Shown: positions 7,951-47,362 of the stretch, in pieces
Numbering within the stretch: the stretch's first letter is position 1
Layout of the letters: every line of letters starts with the position of its first letter
Assembly (NCBI GenBank): GCA_017883235.1
Contig: JADGNY010000044.1
Location: 1-47,380 of the forward strand
Origin: Thermoanaerobaculia bacterium
GTDB taxonomy: Bacteria; Acidobacteriota; Thermoanaerobaculia; Gp7-AA8
Length of the DNA: 47,380 nt
Reading direction: 5' to 3'
Notes under the pieces: model-generated
Database searches by the model: none
What the model saw: only the letters and a program-made list of their open reading frames with translations
What the model was told of the DNA's origin: nothing
Made by a program: the position numbers and the translations under genes

Positions 7951-8403
7951 ATGACACGGTTCCTGGCCCTTTTCCTTCTGGTCGCGACGCCGGCGCTCGC
8001 CTCGGACATCACCCGAGCGTCGGTCGTCGCGGCCATGAATGAGTACCGCGCGGAGCACCACCTCCCACTCCTGCGCGAGGATTTGCGTCTCGATGCCGCC
8101 GCTAACGACCGGATGCGCGACATGGAAGATCAGGGCTACTGGGCTCACGAATCTCCCGACGGCCGCTCGCCCTTCACCTGGCTCGCGCCGCACGAATACG
8201 ACTTCCACTACGCCGGTGAAAACCTCGCCTCCGGCTTCGAGACCACCGAGCTGCTGGTAGCCGGCTGGATGGAGTCGCCCGGCCACCGCGACAACATCCT
8301 TTCGCCGCATTTCGAAGATTGCGGCATCGCCATCATCGACGGAATGACGATGCGGCGCGGGACGGGGAAATCGATCGTGGTGATGTTCGGGGCCACGCGC
8401 TAG
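7951..8403 (+). CDS. Secreted CAP (SCP-like) domain protein
   Basis: This 150-aa protein has a signal peptide (about 1-17, ending ALA) followed directly by a CAP domain. The family signatures are AMNEYRAEHHLPLL, H in YWAHESPDGRSPF, AGENLASG and SPGHRDNILSPHF, which supply the two His and the acidic residues of the CAP cavity. Bacterial members are extracellular and of mostly unknown role. The 3' 155 bp of this gene are duplicated at 9616-9770, on the far side of an apparent insertion. A strong terminator follows the stop codon. Confidence 0.9.
   Translation: MTRFLALFLLVATPALASDITRASVVAAMNEYRAEHHLPLLREDLRLDAAANDRMRDMEDQGYWAHESPDGRSPFTWLAPHEYDFHYAGENLASGFETTELLVAGWMESPGHRDNILSPHFEDCGIAIIDGMTMRRGTGKSIVVMFGATR
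8245..8399 (+). repeat. 155-bp direct repeat, copy 1 (CAP gene 3' end)
   Basis: This segment matches 9616-9770 almost base for base, with differences mainly near the 5' edge (CTGGTAG versus GTCTTTG) and a few substitutions. Together the two copies bracket 8400-9615. Confidence 0.88.
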
Positions 8404-9554: not shown

Positions 9555-9615
9555 GAAACTGAATGTTATTTGACCAGATAACGGATGTCAATAACTATTT
9601 CAGAGCATAGGTACA

Positions 9616-9770
9616 ACCGAGCTGGTCTTTGCCGGCTGGATGGAGTCGCCCGGCCACCGCGACAACATCCTTTCGCCGCATTTCGAAGATTGCGGCATCG
9701 CCATCATCGACGGGATGCCGATGCGGCGCGGGACGGGGAAGTCGATCGTGGTGATGTTCGGGGAGACGCG
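9616..9770 (+). pseudogene. CAP-domain gene fragment (155-bp direct repeat, copy 2)
   Basis: The segment encodes, without a start codon, the last fifty or so residues of the CAP protein, including GWMESPGHRDNILSPHF. It is a second copy of 8245-8399. It lies against the 3' end of the MoeB-like gene on the opposite strand. Confidence 0.85.
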
Positions 9771-13327: not shown

Positions 13328-13445
13328 CGGCGCTTCGCGCGTTGTCGGTTCTCAGTTGTCGGTTGTCTGGGCCGTGCGATCATGCTGCGCTCATGAGTCA
13401 GACCGAACCGACAACCGACAACCGACAACGCGCCGAAGGCGCACG
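13328..13445. repeat. Heptamer inverted-repeat element, GGTTGTC type, spanning a start codon
   Basis: The left arm (13338-13370) reads GTTGTCGGTT...GTTGTCGGTTGTC and the right arm (about 13403-13445) holds three complementary ACCGACA units followed by CGCGCCGAAGGCGC. The ATG of the thioesterase gene (13393) is in the loop, and its first 17 or so codons lie in the right arm. Confidence 0.8.
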
Positions 13446-13929: not shown

Positions 13930-14631
13930 GTGATTACCGGCTTCAACACCGACATCAAGCACAACGAGAAGGTCTTCCATATCCAGACCGAGGATAAGGG
14001 ACTCCAGAACCCGTATATCGAGTCGCTTGTCTACGTTGGCGGGGAGATCCTTGCTTCGAAAAAGACCTCGTACGCGGAGCAGGCCGGCGCGGGTGTCGAT
14101 GAGAAGTGGATCGGCAGTCTGATGGAGCAGCAGCATCGGACGATGATCGCGGCCATCAAGCGGGGGCGCTTCGATGCCGATGCCACGAAATCGACGGCTC
14201 GTCCGACGATGTCGCGGCCCTCGCCCGGTTCGACAGCCGTCGAGCCGCCGCCACCGCTGGTGATCGACGAGGAGAGGACTCTCGATCAGGTCATCATCGA
14301 CTACCTGGCGTCGGAAGCCGAGAGCGAGCATCTCGAGCTCTCGTTGTTGAACAGCACCGAATTCTATGCCGGCTCGGCGGTCGAGTTGCGCGTCGCGGCG
14401 AAGAAGAGCCTCTCGCAGAATCCGATCGCCGCGGCAGCGATCGAGGTGAAAGTCATCTCCACCATCGAGCCGCCGCGAGTCATCTTCCGCGGCAAAACCG
14501 CCGCCGACGGCACCGCCGTCGTCCGCTGCGAGATTCCTCCCTTCGCAGAGGGAACCGCCGCCATCATCATCTCCGCCCAGAGTCCAATCGGAAATGACGA
14601 GGTGAAGCAACTTGTGAAGAGGAAGAAGTGA
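13930..14631 (+). CDS. Conserved hypothetical protein
   Basis: This 233-aa cytoplasmic protein starts with GTG. The N-terminal 65 residues (ITGFNTDIKHNEKVFHIQTEDKG, in short a strand-rich FHIQTED core followed by GGEILASKKTSY) resemble a module I associate with acidobacterial and deltaproteobacterial hypothetical proteins. A Pro/Ser-rich linker (about 90-112) leads to a beta-rich C-terminal domain (about 128-225) that could be Ig-like (VIFRGKTAADGTAVVRCEIPPF). No enzymatic motif is visible. A TACACT box at 13887-13892 may be its promoter. A long GGGAGTC hairpin follows the stop codon. Confidence 0.75.
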   Translation: MITGFNTDIKHNEKVFHIQTEDKGLQNPYIESLVYVGGEILASKKTSYAEQAGAGVDEKWIGSLMEQQHRTMIAAIKRGRFDADATKSTARPTMSRPSPGSTAVEPPPPLVIDEERTLDQVIIDYLASEAESEHLELSLLNSTEFYAGSAVELRVAAKKSLSQNPIAAAAIEVKVISTIEPPRVIFRGKTAADGTAVVRCEIPPFAEGTAAIIISAQSPIGNDEVKQLVKRKK

Positions 14632-14634
14632 TTG

Positions 14635-14720
14635 AATCGGGAGTCGGGAGTCGGGGGTCGGGAGTCGGAGCTGAACCGCTATTCTCCGACCCCCGACCCC
14701 CGACTCCCGACCCCCGATTT
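14635..14720. repeat. Heptamer inverted-repeat element, GGGAGTC type
   Basis: The left arm has five GGGAGTC/GGGGGTC heptamers, the loop is about 13 nt, and the right arm has the complementary GACTCCC/GACCCCC heptamers. It could form a very stable hairpin between two plus-strand genes. A near copy is embedded in a coding region at 34648-34722. Confidence 0.88.
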
Positions 14721-14756: not shown

Positions 14757-17186
14757 ATGCCTCGGCATCGTCTGACTCACGCGCTCCTCCTCCTGGCCGG
14801 CCTCGTGCTGGTGACGTATGTCCTCATCAGCCTTTACCTCCCTTCGTCGCGGTGGCTGGTCTTTGGCGTCGACAAGCACACCGGCGTCGTTCGCGTCGTG
14901 CAGCAGACCATTACCTTCCTACCGCCGCATCAGTTCTACCGGCTGCGATTCGAGCGCCGGGAAGGGTACGCGCAGCGCGACGGCATCATCCGCATCACGT
15001 CAAAGGAAGGGGTGCCTGTGACGGTGAATTACCGTCTCCGTTTCGGAATCGCCGGCGAGCGGCTTCCGGACGCACGCCGCATGGTCGAGGAAGGATGGAA
15101 CGCCTGGATCCGGGCTCGCGTGGCCGAGGCCGTGTCGGCCGTGACGCAGCAGATCCCGATCGAAGACCTTCTCTCGCCAAGCTCGCAATTCAATTCGCAG
15201 CGCGACCCGCTGCGGCAGACCGTTGCCAACCATCTCGCCCGCAGCGGCCTGAAAGTCACCGCCTTCGAGGTGGCGCGATTCGAAGTCGATCGTGACGCGC
15301 TTCTCCGCGTCAAACGCGCCGAGCTCCGGCGTGACGCGCGCAGTTCGCCGACCCGCGTCGTGATCTTCGCGCTCGACGGCGCCGATTGGGAATTGCTGCA
15401 CGAACTGTCGGACGACGGCCGAATCCCCAACATCAGGGCGCTGGCGTCCGGTGGGACGACGGCGTCGTTGCAGACCATCCAGCCGACGGTCTCGCCGATG
15501 GTCTGGACGACCGTCGCCACCGGCCTGACGCCTGACCGCCACGGCATGCTCGATTACATCGACCGCGCGCACGGCACTCCGGTGGATGCCTATTCGCGGC
15601 GCGTGCCGGCGCTATGGGACATCGCCGACGCCTTCGGGCGCAGTTCGCTCGTCAGCGGCTGGTGGGGATCGTGGCCACCGACCGCGCCGAACAGTGTTTT
15701 CTACGACACACCGGTCGAGGAGGTGGCGAACGCGGTTTATCCGCCGGCGTTGACCGACCGCGCCGCGTCGCTGGCCGTTCCGGCCGACACGGTCGGCTAT
15801 TCGCAGGTGCGGCGGTTCCTGAACATCACCACGGACGAATGGGATAGCGCTGCAAAGAACCCAGCCGACCCGGCCATGATTTTCCGCTCGATCCTGGCCA
15901 AGACCTGGAACGACCATCGCGTGGCCATCAATCTCTACAACGATCAGCGGCAGCGGGGGCAGGATCCGATGCTGGTCATGGTCTCGTACGAAGGGACCGA
16001 TGCGGTCAATCATCTCTTCGCGCCCTACCATCCGCCGTATCGCGAAGGGATCAGCGAGCAGAACTACCGCAAGTACTGGCCGGCCGTGGCGAATTACTAC
16101 GCCGAGGTCGACCGGCTCATCGGCGAATGGATGAGCGTCCTGCCGCGCGACACCACGGTGATGATCATGTCGTCGTACGGCTTCCGTTGGGGAAAGAACC
16201 GACCGCGCACGATGCCCAACGGCGGCGCGGCGCTCTCCGACCATCGCAATCCGGGCATGTTCGTGGCGTACGGGCCGCATGTGATCGCCAATCACGCCGC
16301 GCAGCCGCTATCGGTCTACGACATCGCGCCGACGGTTCTGGCGCTCCTCGGCCTCCCCCCGGCAGCCGACATGCCGGGTCATGTGATCACATGGGCGTTC
16401 AAGGACGTCGCGCCGATCACTTCCGTGCGTGTGGTCAGCTACGGCGAGTTCGTCAACAGCAAGCCGCTGACGACCTCCGCGCACGTTGCCGAAGGCCCGT
16501 ACGCGAGCCAATTGCAGGCCATCGGCCACCTCAACGACCCGACCCGCAACCTCACGCCTGTGCTCGAAGACGAAGGGGACACACCGCAGCGTGCCGCCGC
16601 GCCGCTGTCGCCGGAGCAGTGGGGACAGTACGCGTACTACAACAACCTCGGCGTCGATCTGCGCGGGAAGGGGAAGCTGAGCGAGGCCGTCGATGCATTC
16701 GACCGCGCCATCGACATCAATCCGACGCGCCCGACACCGCATCTCAACGAGGCCATGACGATGTTCGACCGGCAGCAGTATTCGCCGGCCGACGATCAGT
16801 TCCTGAGGGCGGTGGCTCTCGGATTGCCGAACGCGGAGAGTTACTTCATCGACTTCGCCGCGCTCTACCGGGAGCGCAACATGGACAACCGGGCGATCGC
16901 GTTGTTGTACCAGGGGAGGAGACTCTTCCCGCAGTCGTACCTCGTCGCCGCGAACCTCGGCTCCGCGCTGCTGGCGGCGCAGCGGTACAGCGAAGGGGTT
17001 CCGGAGCTGGTCCGCGCTCTCGGAATCCAGCCGTCTTCCACACTTGCTCTCAACAACCTCGGCCTTTTCTACGCGACGCAGAACGACTTCGGGCGCGCTC
17101 TCGACTTCTGGAACCGCTCGCTGACCATCGATCCGCACCAGCCGCAGATCCGTGAAGCGGCCATGGCTGCCCGCTCGCGGTTGTAG
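14757..17186 (+). CDS. SPFH/band-7 - type I phosphodiesterase (alkaline phosphatase superfamily) - TPR fusion protein
   Basis: This 809-aa protein has a membrane anchor (about 8-30), a band-7/SPFH-like domain (about 40-190: GVVRVVQQ, DGIIRITSKEGVPVTVNYRLRF), an alkaline-phosphatase-superfamily domain (about 198-550) and TPR repeats (about 625-805). In the phosphatase domain D207 (FALDG), S246 near WTTVATG, D415 and H419 (GTDAVNH) and H496 (SDHRNPG) fit the metal and nucleophile positions. The usual SDHG motif reads SSYG (472-475), so two metal ligands seem lost and activity may be reduced or absent. It probably acts at the outer face of the inner membrane and may have a structural or signalling role. 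It is monocistronic. Confidence 0.82.
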   Translation: MPRHRLTHALLLLAGLVLVTYVLISLYLPSSRWLVFGVDKHTGVVRVVQQTITFLPPHQFYRLRFERREGYAQRDGIIRITSKEGVPVTVNYRLRFGIAGERLPDARRMVEEGWNAWIRARVAEAVSAVTQQIPIEDLLSPSSQFNSQRDPLRQTVANHLARSGLKVTAFEVARFEVDRDALLRVKRAELRRDARSSPTRVVIFALDGADWELLHELSDDGRIPNIRALASGGTTASLQTIQPTVSPMVWTTVATGLTPDRHGMLDYIDRAHGTPVDAYSRRVPALWDIADAFGRSSLVSGWWGSWPPTAPNSVFYDTPVEEVANAVYPPALTDRAASLAVPADTVGYSQVRRFLNITTDEWDSAAKNPADPAMIFRSILAKTWNDHRVAINLYNDQRQRGQDPMLVMVSYEGTDAVNHLFAPYHPPYREGISEQNYRKYWPAVANYYAEVDRLIGEWMSVLPRDTTVMIMSSYGFRWGKNRPRTMPNGGAALSDHRNPGMFVAYGPHVIANHAAQPLSVYDIAPTVLALLGLPPAADMPGHVITWAFKDVAPITSVRVVSYGEFVNSKPLTTSAHVAEGPYASQLQAIGHLNDPTRNLTPVLEDEGDTPQRAAAPLSPEQWGQYAYYNNLGVDLRGKGKLSEAVDAFDRAIDINPTRPTPHLNEAMTMFDRQQYSPADDQFLRAVALGLPNAESYFIDFAALYRERNMDNRAIALLYQGRRLFPQSYLVAANLGSALLAAQRYSEGVPELVRALGIQPSSTLALNNLGLFYATQNDFGRALDFWNRSLTIDPHQPQIREAAMAARSRL

Positions 17187-20519: not shown

Positions 20520-20635
20520 CTGAGGAATGTTGAATTGAATGTTCAGTGTTCAATGTCGAATGTTGAATGAGCAAGAAGAGAACATTCAACATTGAACACT
20601 GAACATTACTGAACATTCAACATTCAACATTTGCT
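20520..20635. repeat. Heptamer inverted-repeat element, AATGTTG type
   Basis: The left arm (20525-20570) repeats AATGTTGA and AATGTTCA units, and the right arm (20581-20631) carries the complements AACATTCAACATTGAACA. It is AT-rich in a GC-rich background and sits between divergent gltX and the pseudopilin genes. A second element of the same type is at 28470-28575. Confidence 0.87.
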
Positions 20636-30007: not shown

Positions 30008-31452
30008 ACGCCATCGATCGACGCATCGCCGAGTGGCTCTTTCTGCTCACCTTCGCCACCTACGGCTACTTCTTCGCCGGCGGAGGATGGAACCAGAACG
30101 CCACGTTCGATCTGACGCGCGCCATCGTGGAGCGGCATACGTTTGCGATCGACGCGTATGCCCGCAATACCGGCGACGTCTCGTTCGGCCGCGGCCACAC
30201 CTACGCGAACAAGGCGCCCGCTCTGGGGTGGCTGGCGGCGATTCCGTACGCGCCGCTCTACGCGTTCGAGCGGTCGCGCGAGGCCGATCCCGGCAACGCC
30301 CAACTGTTGACGATCAACGCGTACCTCTGCTCGCTCGTCTGCGTGGCGTTGCCGGGAGCATTCATCCCGGCGATGCTCTTTCTCTACGCGAGGCGCCGCG
30401 GCGTTGACGCGCGATGGGCCGCACTCGTGGCACTGTCCATGGCGCTGGCGACACAACTCCTCCCCTACGCCACGATCCTGATGGTGGCTGTTCCGAGCGC
30501 GGCGCTGCTGCTGTTCGCGCTGACGACGCCGCATCGCGCCCTGGCCGGATTCGCCGCCGCGCTGGCCGTGGCGATGAATTATCTCTGCGCGCCGGCGCTC
30601 CTCGTGTTCGCATTCATCGGGCCGCGGAAGAGGTGGTTTCACTACGCTCTCGGATCGCTGCCTCCGCTCGCCGCGTTGCTCGCGTACCAGCGGATCTGCT
30701 TTGGAGGATTCTTCACCACGAGCGTGGAAGTGACCGATCCGAGGTTTCTCATCCACGGCGCGCCGCTCGGCGTGATGCAGCGGCCATCGCTGGCGGTGCT
30801 CTACGCAATCACGCTCTCGCCCTACCGAGGCTTCTTCTTCTTCGCGCCGTTGCTCCTCGTCGCGCTCTTCGGCTTCGTGGCCTGGTGGCGCAGCGAGCGC
30901 ATCGTCTGCGCGGCAGCGATCGTCGTGATCGTCATATTCGTCGCGTTCAATACCAGTTTCAACGGATGGGAAGGCGGCTTCGGGATCGGCGGGCGCTATC
31001 TCGCTCCGCTCATTCCCCTCTTCGGAATCGCCCTTCTCCACGTTCGCTGGCGCGCCGTTGCCGGCGTCGCGGCGGCACTCTCGTTTGCCATCAACTTTGC
31101 CGTGGCCGCCGTCGATCCGCAACCATCGGGCACTATCCCGCGGCCGTTGACACAATACATCGCACCGCTGTTGTTGCACGGGCGTTTCGCGCCATCGGTG
31201 CCGATCACGTTTCCATGGTCATGGACGACGTTCACCGGCCACACGTCTGTGAATCGATTGACTCTCGACGAGCCGGTTGTGTTCTTTCGCCACGCCGCCG
31301 GCAGCGAGGCCTCTGAGTGGGCAAGCTTCAACCTCGGCGAGTTTGCAACTGGCCCGGGCGACGCCCGCTCGCTGATCCCGATCGCTCTGGTCATCCTCGG
31401 CGGAGGATTCGTGATCGCGCGATTGGCCATGAAATCAGCAGCAGAGCCGTGA
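30004..31452 (+). CDS. Polytopic membrane protein, GT-C-like, paralog 2
   Basis: This 482-aa protein is the tandem duplicate of the previous gene and starts cleanly at ATG 30004 (MNAIDRRIAEWLFLLTF) within an ATGA overlap. It keeps the same motifs: FAGGGWNQNATFDLTRAIVE, GNTGDVSFGRGHTYANKAPAL, LSPYRGFFFFAPLLL and GGRYLAPLIPLFGIALLHVRW. The helix count is the same. Its 3' end overlaps the convergent YfhO gene by 62 nt, so the two mRNAs have complementary tails. Function probably matches paralog 1; the duplicates may differ in sugar or acceptor. Confidence 0.8.
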   Translation: MNAIDRRIAEWLFLLTFATYGYFFAGGGWNQNATFDLTRAIVERHTFAIDAYARNTGDVSFGRGHTYANKAPALGWLAAIPYAPLYAFERSREADPGNAQLLTINAYLCSLVCVALPGAFIPAMLFLYARRRGVDARWAALVALSMALATQLLPYATILMVAVPSAALLLFALTTPHRALAGFAAALAVAMNYLCAPALLVFAFIGPRKRWFHYALGSLPPLAALLAYQRICFGGFFTTSVEVTDPRFLIHGAPLGVMQRPSLAVLYAITLSPYRGFFFFAPLLLVALFGFVAWWRSERIVCAAAIVVIVIFVAFNTSFNGWEGGFGIGGRYLAPLIPLFGIALLHVRWRAVAGVAAALSFAINFAVAAVDPQPSGTIPRPLTQYIAPLLLHGRFAPSVPITFPWSWTTFTGHTSVNRLTLDEPVVFFRHAAGSEASEWASFNLGEFATGPGDARSLIPIALVILGGGFVIARLAMKSAAEP

Positions 31453-33787
31453 CGATCGCTCCGGCCAGTCCGCCGTAGAACGATGCCGGGAAGTAGTCGA
31501 CACGCACGTCCCAGTCGCCCGGCGGAATGGTGAAGCCGAAGAACGCGCCGTTGACCAGTTGCGGCGCGATCCTCCGGCCGTTGAGGGAAACACGCCATCC
31601 CGGCCACCAGGGCTGGCTGCTGACGATGAGGGCGTGCCGTTGCGAGCGGATCCGGAGCCGGAACGCTGTGTCGCCCGCTTCCACGATCTGCACGATCGGA
31701 TCGCTCTTCGGCGCAAGGAGGTCCTGCCGCATCCTGTCGCTGTCGACCGGAAGAATGTTGACGACGGTCTGCTTCGAAAAATCGTGCTGCATCAGCGTCT
31801 GCGCGAAACGGTCGTGGTTGAACTCGAGAACGATGTCGTGCGCGGCGAAGAAGCGCGGCCTGACGTCGCGGTTCTCGAAAATGCGGCCATCTCGGCCCTC
31901 GTAGAGGAGTTGATACCGCCGGCGGTCCTTTGGATCGAAGCCGCGGTCGCCGATGACGTAGCGGACGTTGAGATAGTTCAGCAGCGGCGTGTCGAGGTTC
32001 TGCCACTTGGCGAAGTACTCGTTCGTCTCGAAATTCGTCAGGAGCCGCAGGACGCCGAGGTAGCGTCCGAACGCCATCGGATCGTGCGTGCGAATGTCGG
32101 CCAGACCGTACATCGCCTGCGCATTCGGGAAGAGCGCCGCTCCGATGCCGACGATGCGAAAGGGGTCGTTGCGCGGCGTGGCCGCCTGCAGCCGCAGCAG
32201 CGTCGCGATCAACGGAGTCTTCGGGTACATCGCCTCGACCGGCAGCACCGGATTCCAGCCGTCGGTGGCGGTCCACAACTCGGCGATGATCGCTGCGCCG
32301 GCGAGCATCGTGGCGATGTGCCTTCCGCGCACGTGCAGCACGAAGAGTACGGCTACGGTGAGGACGACCATGCTTGGAAGGATGGCGATCATGGCCGTGT
32401 CCTTCGCCGCGGCGGTCGCGAAGGGGAAGGTCAGCATCAGGTAGAGCAGAAATGCCGCGGTCGCCAGTACGCCCAGAAGAAAGGGGATGGATCGCTCGCG
32501 CCGGGCGGTGTCGATCGCCGCCGCCGTCAGCGCCGCGGCGATCCAGCAGAGCAGCAGACGCAATCGCGCATTGGCCGCCAGGCGGAAGACGAAGTGGAAA
32601 AGGGAGCTGATGACCGGCCAGTTGAAGACGATGCCCACCGCGATGAGCGCGAGAACGACCAGGAAGAACTCGCGCGTGCGAAAGCGGCGCCGCACGACCG
32701 CTTGAACGAGAAGCGCGAACCATGAGGCGATGCCGAGGATGCCGGCAAAGCCGGTGATCGACTCCGCCGTGGCCGGGCCTGAGGGTTTTTCGGCCGGCGC
32801 GTGGCCGTAGAAGTTCGGCTCGAAGGTGGCGATGGCGGAGGGAAAGTCGGAGAACGGCGGCTCGCCGTTGGGGTTGACCTGCAACTCCTGAAAGCGCCGC
32901 GACTTCTTCACCGTCTCGGCGAACGTGGCGATGAACGGCGCCGCCAGCAGTGCGGCTACGAAGATCGCCGCGGCGGCGAGCGCCAGCGCGCGGATGGCAT
33001 CGCGGCGAGGCACCGGACGCTCGACGAAGGCAATCCACAGAGCGAAGAGGCCTCCGAAGAACGTGGCGTGCGTCACCGTCTCCGGATGGCCGCCATACAG
33101 CATCGCCGTCCAGACCAGGACGGCGAAAACGAAACGCCGGTACGTGCACCGCTCGATCAGCAGCTCGATGGCCAAAAACGCCGCAGGCAGCCAGACGGCG
33201 ACCGTGACGATCGGGAAGTGCAGCCAGGTGCTGACGAACGTGCAGAAGGCGAACGAAATCGCCCCGATCGCCGATGGCAGCTCGTCATAGCGCCGCCGGC
33301 AGAAGAGGTACATCGATGTGAGCGCGATGAGCAGTTTCATGGCCGCCTCGGCGGTCATGGCGTAGCCAAGCGGCAGCGGAAGCGCCAGCAGGCGCAGCGG
33401 CGACATGGCCGAGCTCTGGCCGTTCGCCAGCAGCGGATAGCCGCATCCCGCCAGCGGATTCCAGATCGGGAACTGCAGCGAGCGCCATGCCTCGCGCGCC
33501 TGATGCGCCCACGGCACGATCTGCATCGTCAGATCGTTCATCTCCGGGTTTGACAGCAGGTGGCGGTGGCCCCAGTTCCCCCAAGGGGGAAGGATGTTGA
33601 TGAAGTCGACCGGCAGGTTGACGTAGCGGCCGGTCATCGGCCGGAAGAGATAGATCAGGACGAGCGCGTAGAAGAACGCGGCCACGCGCCACGGCAGAGC
33701 GTCACGGACCGCCGGGCTCCAGCGCCGCGCGCAGGCGATCGCGATCGCATAGAGCGCGCCGACGTAGATCCATGTGGCGTTGAACAC
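31391..33787 (-). CDS. YfhO-family membrane protein, paralog 1
   Basis: This 798-aa protein has about twelve predicted helices and a C-terminal periplasmic domain. It matches the bacterial YfhO family, GT-C-like proteins linked to glycosylation of teichoic acid or other envelope polymers. Typical elements are the early PWAHQAREAW and FPIWNPLAGCGYPLLANGQ with GYPLLA, and the late WWPGWRVSLNG and FGFTIPPGDWDVRV. It starts with GTG 33787 inside the end of the upstream paralog, preceded by TATGAT 8 nt away and no Shine-Dalgarno. The pair overlaps by 86 nt. Its 3' end overlaps the convergent GT-C gene. Confidence 0.85.
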   Translation of the reverse strand: MFNATWIYVGALYAIAIACARRWSPAVRDALPWRVAAFFYALVLIYLFRPMTGRYVNLPVDFINILPPWGNWGHRHLLSNPEMNDLTMQIVPWAHQAREAWRSLQFPIWNPLAGCGYPLLANGQSSAMSPLRLLALPLPLGYAMTAEAAMKLLIALTSMYLFCRRRYDELPSAIGAISFAFCTFVSTWLHFPIVTVAVWLPAAFLAIELLIERCTYRRFVFAVLVWTAMLYGGHPETVTHATFFGGLFALWIAFVERPVPRRDAIRALALAAAAIFVAALLAAPFIATFAETVKKSRRFQELQVNPNGEPPFSDFPSAIATFEPNFYGHAPAEKPSGPATAESITGFAGILGIASWFALLVQAVVRRRFRTREFFLVVLALIAVGIVFNWPVISSLFHFVFRLAANARLRLLLCWIAAALTAAAIDTARRERSIPFLLGVLATAAFLLYLMLTFPFATAAAKDTAMIAILPSMVVLTVAVLFVLHVRGRHIATMLAGAAIIAELWTATDGWNPVLPVEAMYPKTPLIATLLRLQAATPRNDPFRIVGIGAALFPNAQAMYGLADIRTHDPMAFGRYLGVLRLLTNFETNEYFAKWQNLDTPLLNYLNVRYVIGDRGFDPKDRRRYQLLYEGRDGRIFENRDVRPRFFAAHDIVLEFNHDRFAQTLMQHDFSKQTVVNILPVDSDRMRQDLLAPKSDPIVQIVEAGDTAFRLRIRSQRHALIVSSQPWWPGWRVSLNGRRIAPQLVNGAFFGFTIPPGDWDVRVDYFPASFYGGLAGAIVTALLLISWPIARSRILRRG

Positions 33788-36146
33788 CGGCGCGGATCAT
33801 AAAGCAGACGAGCACGGCGGCGGTCAGCAGCGCGAGGAGCGACGCGGCGTAGAACGAGACAGGGACGTAGCGGATGCGAACGGTGGTGTGGCCGGCGGGG
33901 ACGGTGAAATTGAGGAAGGGTACATCCGCGCGAGTGGCACCCCCCTCATCCGCCGGAGCTTGCCCTGAGGAGCGATAGCGACGAAGGGGCACCTTCTCCC
34001 CCCGCAAAAAGCGCGGGGGGAGAAGGGCTCTCGATTGAGAGATAGTGACCCGCCACCACCGCGACCAACCGACACTGCTGGAGATGAGCGTCTCCTTTGC
34101 TGCATCGATCTCGAGCGTGTAGGCATCGCCGCTTGCAGCGGTGATGCGCACATGAGCACCATCGCCGAAGAATCGCGGCAGAGCATGAAGATTCTCGTAG
34201 AGACGTCCGTCGGGGCCGGCGTAGCGCAGTGCATAGCGCGTTGTGTCGGTTAGCTCATGACCGGGCTCCGTCATCAGCCAGCGGACGTTCAGCCGGTCGA
34301 GGAGCGGCGTCGATTCGTCGATCCACTTCTTGTAGTAGTCGTGCGTGATGGCGCTGCCGATGAAGTGAACGTACGGCGCCGGCTCCATCGGATCGTGAAC
34401 GCGGGAGTCCTCGATGCCGAACATGGCATTGGTGTTCGGAAAGAGAACGCCGCCGATGGCGGCCACGCGATCGAAGCCGGGCCGGTGGTGGCGCAATACG
34501 GCGTCGATGAGAGGCGTGCGCGGATAGAACGCCGACATCGGAAAGGCCCGGTTCCAGCCGATCGTCAGCGGCCACATCTCCGCGATGACGGCGGCGACGA
34601 GCACCAGCGAGGCGACGCTTCGCAGCCGCGGCGCGAGGGAAGCGGGGGTCGGGAGCCGGGAGTCGGGAGTCGGAGAAACCACGGCGCTCAGCTCCGACTC
34701 CCGACCCCCGACTCCCGACTGCAGCATCGAAGCGATCGCCGCGACCGCGATGACGATGATGCTCGGGATGACCGAGAGCAGTCCGTCGTGCCGCGCGGTG
34801 GCGCTGGGGAACGGCGTCCTGGCGATGATCAGCACGATCAGCGCGGCCGACGATGCCAGTCCGATCGCGAACGGCAGGACGTTCCCGCGCGACAGACGAT
34901 CCACCGCCGCGGCGATCAGCACGGCCAGGAGCCAGGCGAACAGGAAGCGGAGCCGGGCATTGGCGGCCAGACCGATGACCGCGTGCAGCGCGGCGACGGC
35001 AGGCCCGACGTTGGCCAGCAATGCAAAGACCGCCATCACGGCGAGTACGAAAAAGACCTCGCGCTCACGGAAGCGCCGTCGCATGACTGCATCGATGGCG
35101 ATGGCGATGACCGCGGCAATCCCGAGAATCCCGGCGAATCCCGTCACCGCCTCGGCGGTAGCCGGGCCCCACGGATTCCCGGGCCGCGTGCCGTAAAGAC
35201 GCGGCTGCACGAGCAATGCGAGCGACGGCTCGTCGGAGAAGGGCATCGCGCTGCCGGAGGCTTTCTTCTCCTCGAAACGCGTCGACTGGCGGACGTTCTC
35301 CGCGAACGGCACGATCAGCGGCAGTGCCAGTAGAAAGGCCACCGCTCCCGCTCCGGCTAGCGCCGGGAGGAAATCGCGCTTCCTCTCGACGAGCACGATC
35401 CAGAGAACATAAGCGACCGCGAAGAGGAGGATGTGGACCGCCGTCTCCGGATGACCGCAGAAGACGGTCATGGCGCCGATCACGGCCGTCATCGCGAAAC
35501 GCGGAAAGGTGCGCCGCTCCGCCAGCAGATCGATCTGATAGATGACCGCCGGCAGGAAGCAGGCCGCCGTGCTCTGCGCGAAGTGCAGCCACGCGACGAC
35601 GAACGGGCCGAAGCCGTACGCGATCGCGGCGATCGTGCTCGGGAGCGTGTCATACCGGCGCCGGCAGTAGAGAAAGGTGAATGTGAGTGCGACGAGAATC
35701 TTCATTGCCGCCTCGGCGGTCATGGCGTAGGCGAGCGGAAGCGGCAGTGCGAGGATCCGCAGCGGCGAGAATGCCGCGCTCTGCGCGTTGGCCAGCAGCG
35801 GATAGCCGCAGCCGGCGAGCGCGTTCCAGAGCGGGACGTGGCCCGACAGCCATGCCTCGCGCACCTGATGCGCCCACGGCACGAGCTGCATCGGTACGTC
35901 GTGCGTCTCCATGTTCAGCACGGTGTATTTCGTCAGCCCCGGCGCCGAAGCGGACCACGGCGCGATGAGCCGAGGGATGTCCATGGCGATCGAGACGTAG
36001 GGGCCGGTCATCGCCTTGAAGAAGAAGACGGCGACGAGCGCGTAGAACAGCAGTGCGATCCGTCTCGGCAGCGGATTCCCGCCCCGCCGCGCAAGCCAGA
36101 CGGCGACGGCATAGACCGCGCCGACGTAAAGCCAAGTGGGATTCAA
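33702..36146 (-). CDS. YfhO-family membrane protein, paralog 2, with in-frame repeat insertions
   Basis: This 814-aa protein is a duplicate of the next YfhO gene and shares its layout (WLYVGAVYAVAV start, VPLWNALAGCGYPLLANAQ, late WWRVTI and FTVPAGHTTVRIRYVPVSFY). Two stretches are foreign relative to the paralog. One is a Pro/Ser-rich insert (GVGGRESELSAVVSPTPDSR and following, described by position 34648-34722) encoded by a GGGAGTC hairpin element. The other is an Arg/Pro-rich insert encoded by a REP-like element at 33938-34034. Both keep the frame and lie in non-membrane loops. The start is TTG 36146. The last 25 or so residues run past the expected end into the next gene, as if the original stop codon was lost. 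Confidence 0.82.
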   Translation of the reverse strand: MNPTWLYVGAVYAVAVWLARRGGNPLPRRIALLFYALVAVFFFKAMTGPYVSIAMDIPRLIAPWSASAPGLTKYTVLNMETHDVPMQLVPWAHQVREAWLSGHVPLWNALAGCGYPLLANAQSAAFSPLRILALPLPLAYAMTAEAAMKILVALTFTFLYCRRRYDTLPSTIAAIAYGFGPFVVAWLHFAQSTAACFLPAVIYQIDLLAERRTFPRFAMTAVIGAMTVFCGHPETAVHILLFAVAYVLWIVLVERKRDFLPALAGAGAVAFLLALPLIVPFAENVRQSTRFEEKKASGSAMPFSDEPSLALLVQPRLYGTRPGNPWGPATAEAVTGFAGILGIAAVIAIAIDAVMRRRFREREVFFVLAVMAVFALLANVGPAVAALHAVIGLAANARLRFLFAWLLAVLIAAAVDRLSRGNVLPFAIGLASSAALIVLIIARTPFPSATARHDGLLSVIPSIIVIAVAAIASMLQSGVGGRESELSAVVSPTPDSRLPTPASLAPRLRSVASLVLVAAVIAEMWPLTIGWNRAFPMSAFYPRTPLIDAVLRHHRPGFDRVAAIGGVLFPNTNAMFGIEDSRVHDPMEPAPYVHFIGSAITHDYYKKWIDESTPLLDRLNVRWLMTEPGHELTDTTRYALRYAGPDGRLYENLHALPRFFGDGAHVRITAASGDAYTLEIDAAKETLISSSVGWSRWWRVTISQSRALLPPRFLRGEKVPLRRYRSSGQAPADEGGATRADVPFLNFTVPAGHTTVRIRYVPVSFYAASLLALLTAAVLVCFMIRAGVQRHMDLRRRALCDRDRLRAALEPGGP
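33796..33801 (-). promoter_or_regulatory. -10-like box TATGAT before YfhO paralog 1
   Basis: On the minus strand TATGAT ends 8 nt before the GTG start, within the 3' end of the upstream gene. It would allow independent leaderless expression. Confidence 0.5.
33938..34034. repeat. REP-like element inside a coding sequence, copy 1
   Basis: CCCCCTCATCCGCCGG, then GGCACCTTCTCCCCCC, a loop, and GGGGGGAGAAGGGCTCTCG. In reverse complement it matches the element at 47299-47362 (CCTTCTCCCCC, loop, GGGGGAGAAGGTGCC, GGCGGATGAGGGGG). It is read through in frame by YfhO paralog 2. Confidence 0.85.
34648..34722. repeat. GGGAGTC-type element inside a coding sequence
   Basis: GGGGGTCGGGAGCCGGGAGT and following heptamers face CTCCGACTCCCGACCCCCGA across a loop of about 25 nt. 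It is the same family as 14635-14720 but lies within the YfhO paralog 2 gene and adds about 27 codons absent from paralog 1. Confidence 0.87.
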
Positions 36147-36290: not shown

Positions 36291-36617
36291 CCCGAGCCGT
36301 GGCGTCTCGCCGGGTCGGGCGGAGGCGGTTTTCCGGAGCGCTGGCGTCTCGCCGGCTGGTCCGGCGTGCGTCCCGCCGCCGCGGGTTACCGCAAATGTCT
36401 GGCGTCTTGCCGGGCGGGCGGCGGTGGTTTTCGGAGCGCTGACGTCTCGCCGGCTAGCCCGGGGCGTCTCGCCAGGCGTCTCGCCAGGCGTCTCGCCCCC
36501 GAACCGGCAAGACTCCCAACATTCGCGTGAAACCCGGCGGCGGGACGCACGCCGGGCCAGCCGGCGAGACGCCAGCGCTCCGACCGTAAAGCGCTTAAGT
36601 TCAGGCCATTGGGTTTA
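36268..36617. repeat. Palindromic block A with inverted ends
   Basis: The ends are inverted repeats: CCAATGGCCTGAACTTAGCG at the left and CGCTTAAGTTCAGGCCATTG at the right. Inside, GGAGCGCTGGCGTCTCGCC (36335-36353) is inverted at 36563-36581, and other pairs are visible (GCGTGCGTCCCGCC with GGCGGGACGCACGC). It looks like a MITE- or REP-like unit of about 350 bp with no coding capacity of its own. Confidence 0.7.
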
Positions 36618-36638
36618 GTCCGCATTCTCACACTCATG

Positions 36639-37015
36639 CGGTGACGGTCCAATTTGATGCGGTATCGATCCAATCTGGAGCGGCATCGATCCAATTTGAT
36701 GGGGTATCGATCCGATTTGATGCGGTATCGATCCAATCTGATGCGGCATCGATCCAATTTGATGCGGTATCGATCCGATTTGATGCGGCATCGATCCAAT
36801 TTGATGCGGCATCGATCCAATTTGGTGCGGTATCGATCCAATTTGATGCGGCATCGATCCAAGTTGGATGCGGTATCGATCCGATCTGATGCGGCATCGA
36901 TCCGATTTGATGCGGTATCGATCCAATTTGATCCGATTTCGAACCAATCTGATGCGGTATCGATCCAATTTGGAGCGGCATCGGTCCAATTTGATGCGAT
37001 TTCGGGCCCCAATTT
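36639..37015. repeat. 21-bp tandem array, about 18 units
   Basis: The consensus is GCGGYATCGATCCAATTTGAT, each unit 21 bp except one of 22, with GCGGTATCGATCC and GCGGCATCGATCC forms interspersed. Every unit carries a palindromic ATCGAT core or a variant of it. Frames stay open on both strands (IGSMPHQ or MRYRSNL heptads) because 21 is divisible by three, so openness is not evidence for a protein. The array is bracketed by blocks A and B. Confidence 0.92.
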
Positions 37016-37027
37016 GGCGGAAATCAG

Positions 37028-37215
37028 CGAAACCGAGCCCTGGCGTCTTGCCTGGGGCGGGCGGCGGTGGTTTCCGGAGCGCTGGCGTCTCGCCCCCGAA
37101 CCGGCAAGACTCCCAACATTCGCTGATAACCCGGCAGCGGGACGCACGCCGGGCCAGCTGGCGAGACGCCAGCGCTCCGACCGTAAACCGCTTAAGTTCA
37201 GGCAATTGGGTTCAA
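37028..37215. repeat. Palindromic block B
   Basis: This is a shorter relative of block A in the same orientation: GGAGCGCTGGCGTCTCGCC (37076-37094) is inverted at 37160-37178, followed by the shared tail GACCGTAAA-CGCTTAAGTTCAGG. Blocks A and B therefore form a direct repeat around the 21-bp array. Confidence 0.72.
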
Positions 37216-38637: not shown

Positions 38638-38737
38638 AGTAGATCAGTGATCAGTGGATCAGTGGATTAGTGGATTAGAAACACACGGATCACGAATCCA
38701 CTAGTCGACTGATCCACTGCCCACGAGTCGACTCTAA
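38638..38737. repeat. Octamer inverted-repeat element, AGTGGATC type
   Basis: GATCAGTGGATCAGTGGATT (left) faces AATCCACTAGTCGACTGATC and CCACTGCCC (right). It lies upstream of the lipoprotein gene. The architecture matches the other heptamer elements, with an 8-nt unit. Confidence 0.75.
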
Positions 38738-47298: not shown

Positions 47299-47362
47299 CG
47301 AGAGCCTTCTCCCCCAGCGCTTTTCAGCTGGGGGAGAAGGTGCCGACAGGCGGATGAGGGGG
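47299..47362. repeat. REP-like element, copy 2
   Basis: CCTTCTCCCCCAGC, a short loop and GCTGGGGGAGAAGG form a near-perfect hairpin followed by TGCCGACAGGCGGATGAGGG. It is the intergenic counterpart, in opposite orientation, of the copy within the YfhO gene at 33938-34034. Confidence 0.87.

Follow-up and report, generated by a model that had tools for sequence, protein, structure and literature searches.

Dispersed GGGNGTC hairpins in a genus of Thermoanaerobaculia, with in-frame copies in a YfhO-family gene and other protein genes

Introduction

Palindromic repeats that lie in frame within coding sequences are best known from Rickettsia. Many of the dispersed Rickettsia palindromic elements (RPEs) lie in frame within metabolic genes that are unrelated to one another, where the protein structure can accommodate them, and intergenic copies occur as well (reviewed in PMC10969869). 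A second class of repeats, built from the heptamers GGGNATC or GGGGA(C/T)T, has been described in Xanthomonas and Nostoc, where arrays of four units are preferred and convergent inverted pairs are found (Rehm et al. 2015, PMC4692102). These heptamers are mostly intergenic, near the end of the upstream gene, with 7-11% intragenic in Xanthomonas (PMC4692102).

The hairpin described here is built from the heptamer GGGNGTC and is present in a 47,380-nt stretch of DNA (the window; contig JADGNY010000044.1 of assembly GCA_017883235.1) from a soil member of the Acidobacteriota, class Thermoanaerobaculia, with a genome of 6.9 Mb (G000). Two sister species of the same genus (G001 and G002) are used for comparison; all genomes are drafts, and at least these two sisters derive from metagenomes. 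Like the RPEs, the GGGNGTC hairpin is a many-copy palindrome, with its core at no fewer than 64 places in G000 and none in the reversed control, and it lies in frame in unrelated protein genes (33 copies in the three genomes). It differs in that RPEs are about 150 bp long with a conserved encoded peptide, whereas these elements span 55-120 bp and encode a peptide that varies with strand and loop. Its arms consist of four degenerate heptamers, its loop is not conserved and its host belongs to a different phylum; a sequence relation is not expected. It is also a far simpler hairpin, found in a free-living acidobacterial genus and in conserved enzymes.

With the Xanthomonas and Nostoc repeats it shares a G-rich heptamer with one free position, the preference for four units (here 61 of 102 arms) and convergent inverted pairs. 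However, the unit is GGGNGTC rather than GGGNATC or GGGGA(C/T)T, the inverted 4+4 hairpin with a GGAG/CTCC closing stem dominates the sampled copies, and retention of frame and sharing of sites between species are shown for the GGGNGTC hairpin. REP sequences and REPINs, which are associated with RAYT enzymes, resemble it as short inverted repeats near stop codons with species-specific amplification, but the GGGNGTC element has no stem-loop within each arm, and no cognate RAYT adjoins it at 17 Y1_Tnp loci. Finally, the in-frame tandem repeats of Borg elements (PMC9879509) likewise create disordered protein stretches; those are direct repeats in archaeal extrachromosomal elements, whereas this is a chromosomal hairpin family. 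By strict criteria, the GGGNGTC hairpin belongs neither to the RPEs nor to the Xanthomonas and Nostoc heptamers, and a search of an open-access library returned no report of it in Acidobacteriota.

The hairpin within YfhO2

The features discussed below are as follows (window coordinates).

31391-33787, minus strand: YfhO paralog 1, adjacent to the host gene and without the insertion; 798 aa, 39% identity to paralog 2 with a gap at the insert
33702-36146, minus strand: host gene, YfhO-family membrane protein, paralog 2 (YfhO2); 814 aa, start codon uncertain; Pfam PF09586, E 4.8e-11
34644-34720, unstranded: heptamer hairpin inside YfhO2; four GGGNGTC units and GGAG, a 16-nt loop, then CTCC followed by three full GACNCCC units and part of a fourth
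34676-34691, unstranded: loop of this hairpin, AAACCACGGCGCTCAG on the plus strand; loops vary among copies
34640-34732, minus strand: 93-nt (31-codon) insertion relative to the G001 ortholog, from DNA alignment with G001 and a protein alignment with 16 homologs
33940-34045 (limits approximate), minus strand: second in-frame dispersed repeat of YfhO2, located in the C-terminal soluble domain, with its hairpin core CCTTCTCCCCC...GGGGGAGAAGG at 33992-34026
14639-14715, unstranded: a further copy of the element, between genes, with 4+4 units, lying 7 nt beyond a TGA (14629-14631) and 41 nt short of an ATG at 14757

On the plus strand, the 5' arm reads GGGGGTC GGGAGCC GGGAGTC GGGAGTC (34644-34671) and is closed by GGAG (34672-34675); beyond the loop, CTCC (34692-34695) leads into GACTCCC GACCCCC GACTCCC (34696-34716) and a partial GACT ending at 34720. 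The folding energy of the element is -34 kcal/mol as a DNA strand (z -5.5) and -70.3 kcal/mol for the mRNA (minus) strand as RNA (z -8.0). As a lone heptamer, GGGAGTC is only in mild excess in the window (12 occurrences against 7.6 expected), but its arrays greatly exceed what chance would give, as the genome-wide counts below show.

A first-pass annotation of the window had placed the element at 34648-34722, within a few bases of the refined limits, and had recognized the same kind of element near 14635, where the copy at 14639-14715 indeed matches in architecture. It had also described an in-frame insert between membrane helices, and both points hold: the reading frame is open throughout the hairpin, and hydrophobic windows at residues 456-474 and 504-529 of YfhO2 flank the insert in the protein alignment. 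Its figure of about 27 added residues was low, the alignment giving a net gain of 30-31.

The comparison with homologs is direct. Over residues 1-472 the G001 ortholog is 82% identical, and it shows a clean 93-nt in-frame gap at the hairpin, while the 29-34 residues of the insert are absent from all 16 aligned homologs (paralog 1 and proteins of 15 other genomes). The G002 ortholog appears broken, its matches being scattered over several frames and the insert region lost. Conserved residues shared with orthologs at this site would have spoken against an insertion; none were found. The YfhO2 copy thus appears to have been gained in the G000 lineage after the YfhO duplication, as had been proposed from its absence in paralog 1, or else to have been precisely lost in G001. 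We infer that the inserted stretch is translated as a flexible linker of roughly 30 residues, rich in Gly, Ser, Arg, Glu, Pro and Thr.

Taken as a whole, these observations and those that follow make it probable that the YfhO2 hairpin is one copy of a dispersed palindromic repeat, non-coding in origin, which has settled in a permissive loop and is tolerated there, its translation giving a flexible linker, much in the manner of the Rickettsia elements. The family is best explained as a selfish or structural palindromic repeat. In the proposed mechanism, a repeat of the form (GGGNGTC)4-GGAG-loop-CTCC-(GACNCCC)4 would insert into a permissive loop of the YfhO-family membrane protein, and the translated copy would be tolerated because tandem GGGNGTC is free of stops in all six frames. 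Selection would leave only those in-gene insertions whose length is divisible by three and which lie in surface or inter-helix loops; intergenic copies would persist in the gap just 3' of stop codons.

The CCTTCTCCCCC...GGGGGAGAAGG hairpin core of the C-terminal repeat has 143 copies in G000, 123 in G002 and none in G001, and another copy lies in the window at 47305-47340. At the same C-terminal loop, G001 carries a repeat unrelated to that of G000, and the G000 repeat is absent from the other aligned homologs. Directly upstream of the YfhO genes, the window contains a long tandem array of a 21-nt unit (36590-37061).

Distribution and possible mobility

The 18-mer TCGGGAGTCGGGAGTCGG occurs 62 times in G000 (reversed control, 0). 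Copies in this genome were sampled by pattern, and the copy list is incomplete. In a search of 101 related genomes, the three genus members had 62, 36 and 50 matches, all 15 other genomes of the family had none, and four more distant genomes had sporadic matches (1-3 each). Arrays of the GGGNGTC unit occur also in cyanobacteria, Chloroflexi and other groups.

A dispersed inverted repeat with a spacer and lineage-specific amplification invites comparison with REPIN- or MITE-type elements moved in trans by a transposase, for example a Y1 (RAYT) enzyme. Each of the three genus members has Y1_Tnp genes (9, 8 and 15 matches), and some copies of the hairpin carry GTAG in place of GGAG. Nevertheless, no heptamer array of two or more units lies near any of the 17 Y1_Tnp loci read, and such genes are also common in family members that lack the element. 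Fixed ends are not apparent, loops are not conserved, and no target duplication consistent by eye was seen at sites where relatives lack the element. Neither a transposase linked to the element nor a donor was identified, and mobility of this type is an unlikely account of the family.

Anatomy of the hairpin

Statistics were compiled from 51 copies (102 arms) anchored on the core alone. Exactly four units make up 61 of the 102 arms, and five units make up 4. Conservation in the three inner units runs at about 84-100% for positions 1-3, 5 and 7 and at 75-100% for position 6, with the innermost GTC set by the search pattern; about 80-90% of the outer and middle units have G at position 5. Position 4 is free, being A, G or T in mixed order, and is shared by neighboring units in 111 of 244 cases, which is near independence. 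Loops range from 3 to 65 nt and have no common sequence. An Rfam scan returned only a tmRNA, at the window edge.

An ordinary heptamer microsatellite of G-quadruplex type, grown in place by slippage, could be imagined from the unit alone: heptamer simple-sequence repeats are common in bacteria, the Xanthomonas and Nostoc GGGNATC repeats also favor four units (PMC4692102), and four GGG tracts suit a predicted G-quadruplex. Yet slippage predicts variable copy number and identical neighbors, against the four-unit arms and the mixed position 4 just described, and it leaves the inverted second arm and the GGAG/CTCC closing stem unexplained. Slippage is therefore highly unlikely, and the earlier suggestion that these elements grow finds no support, as the arms are fixed at four units whose neighbors differ at position 4, unlike slippage products.

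Position-4 bases that face each other across the hairpin match less often than in shuffles (46 of 158 against 61.8, P 0.0035). Mutual correction between the two arms of one hairpin was rejected on this ground. Selection could disfavor perfect palindromes, or assembly could under-represent them; either may explain the deficit.

Copies within and between genes

To place the copies, a codon-usage model scored both flanks with the element itself unused, and classes were assigned where both flanks code on one strand. By this measure, 33 copies lie in frame and are open throughout (15 in G000, 14 in G001 and 4 in G002), while 22 are intergenic, the upstream gene ending 2-32 nt before the element (17, 3 and 2, respectively). 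In seven ambiguous copies (4, 2 and 1), the upstream frame stops inside the element or shortly beyond it. No copy in the three genomes joins two different open frames under the codon model; in the absence of constraint, frame should be retained by about one in three in-gene insertions. Copies of the sister genomes at orthologous sites, which were not picked for openness, also lie in continuous frames. Since 7 is prime to 3, all frames on one strand read the same seven-residue cycle; half of all heptamers share with tandem GGGNGTC the freedom from stops in all six frames.

The hosts, named from sequence motifs, include an aconitase-type dehydratase, DNA polymerase III alpha (DnaE), a NuoG-like oxidoreductase, ImuB, a PLP decarboxylase, an MFS transporter, a sulfatase and another YfhO-like protein. 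In the E1-alpha subunit of a pyruvate/2-oxoacid dehydrogenase (PDH E1-alpha), named from motifs and solved structures, the insert falls at the turn that, in solved E1 structures, precedes the GDG cofactor motif.

Age and permissiveness of the sites

For eleven in-gene sites, the joined flanks were searched in G001 and G002. Most queries gave a match split at the junction, with a heptamer hairpin at the same place whose position-4 bases differed and whose loop was usually not the same. At the ImuB, decarboxylase and DnaE sites, the loops are recognizably related between G000 and G001, which argues for vertical descent. Most of the in-gene sites tested are common to one or both sister species and probably predate the radiation of the genus. 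At the in-gene sites searched, the other family members are empty, apart from those with unrelated repeats; sites empty within the genus are those in YfhO2 and the MFS transporter (G001) and in the sulfatase (G002). At the aligned sites, the hairpin seems to have taken the place of a few residues and not simply to have been added. Recent movement into genes, the first-pass view, fits the YfhO2 copy but is not supported for the family at large, as the majority of the remaining in-gene copies tested appear older than the genus radiation. Persistence within genes spans a time long enough for fourfold-degenerate sites to differ by more than 40%.

Long retention by the genus could suggest that the inserts function as protein linkers under selection, and a T at position 4, which would code for Cys in the 5' arm, seldom occurs in that arm among in-gene copies. 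Some of the shared sites, however, bear unrelated repeats in other lineages. In G010, a member of a different genus, an octamer (CACGAGGT) hairpin occupies the very site of the GGGNGTC hairpin in PDH E1-alpha (locus L178); in G002, CGTAGGTCGGACTCTC...GAGAGTCCGACCTACG palindromes are nested in or replace the heptamer hairpins of the decarboxylase and ImuB genes (loci L175 and L186); and the C-terminal loop of YfhO2 behaves likewise. Close relatives also do without the insert, and intergenic copies show equal conservation of the motif. We accordingly give selected linkers little credence; sites that host unrelated repeats in different lineages appear simply to be permissive places. The family can serve as a natural experiment showing which places in proteins tolerate random inserts. 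Removal of the insert before or during translation, by RNA processing or by ribosome bypassing over the hairpin, would leave the protein unchanged and could be entertained for a very stable mRNA hairpin (-70 kcal/mol) that lies in essential enzymes and encodes peptides differing among lineages, but it is extremely improbable, as frame is retained by every clearly in-gene copy in the three genomes, which would be needless if the segment were skipped.

What preserves the motif

Between orthologous units of different species, position 4 differs in 56%, compared with 43-45% at fourfold-degenerate sites and 19% over whole flanks. Positions 1-3 and 5 differ in 9-14%, position 6 in 20% and position 7 in 34%, the last two values owing in part to units of the form GGGNGTG in G002 and to a small number of arms out of register. 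Departures from the consensus are comparably infrequent in intergenic copies. Selection on protein alone cannot give this positional pattern, because the heptamers rotate through the codon phases and intergenic copies are equally conserved. The motif is thus inferred to be kept at the level of nucleic acid, through structure, protein binding or correction among copies, and not for the peptide. The causes that remain are selection on nucleic acid, correction among copies and repeated fresh insertion at the same sites, the last disfavored as a sole cause because loops are related between species. With respect to gene direction, the T variant of position 4 is found mostly in the 3' arm (A/T 26 against T/A 4 in genes; A/T 13 against T/A 5 between genes).

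A more speculative idea, and one we consider rather unlikely to be correct, is that the hairpin is under active maintenance, with some factor recognizing or rewriting six fixed bases per heptamer at every locus, genic and intergenic, while position 4 and the loop drift; the coexistence of several heptamer families with different units in the genome would then point to a general process, not described before, that makes hairpins in seven-base steps, which settle in protein loops. In any event, the family is well suited to studying how a seven-base motif stays intact where the protein code cannot explain it.

Other repeats in the window

The window holds further repeats of several kinds. A heptamer hairpin of a second family (GGTTGTC) lies at 13337-13433, and exact three-unit arrays of this family number 20 in G000, 4 in G002 and 0 in G001. 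Hairpins with 7- or 8-base units (TTCAATG; AGTGGATC) are found at 20538-20607 and 38638-38733, and CAGAARG and ATGAAGG repeat families occur at other loci. A 147-nt unit is repeated three times in tandem at 2315-2755, its copies 68-80% alike, and a 158-nt duplication with 94% identity links the neighboring regions 8242-8399 and 9613-9770.
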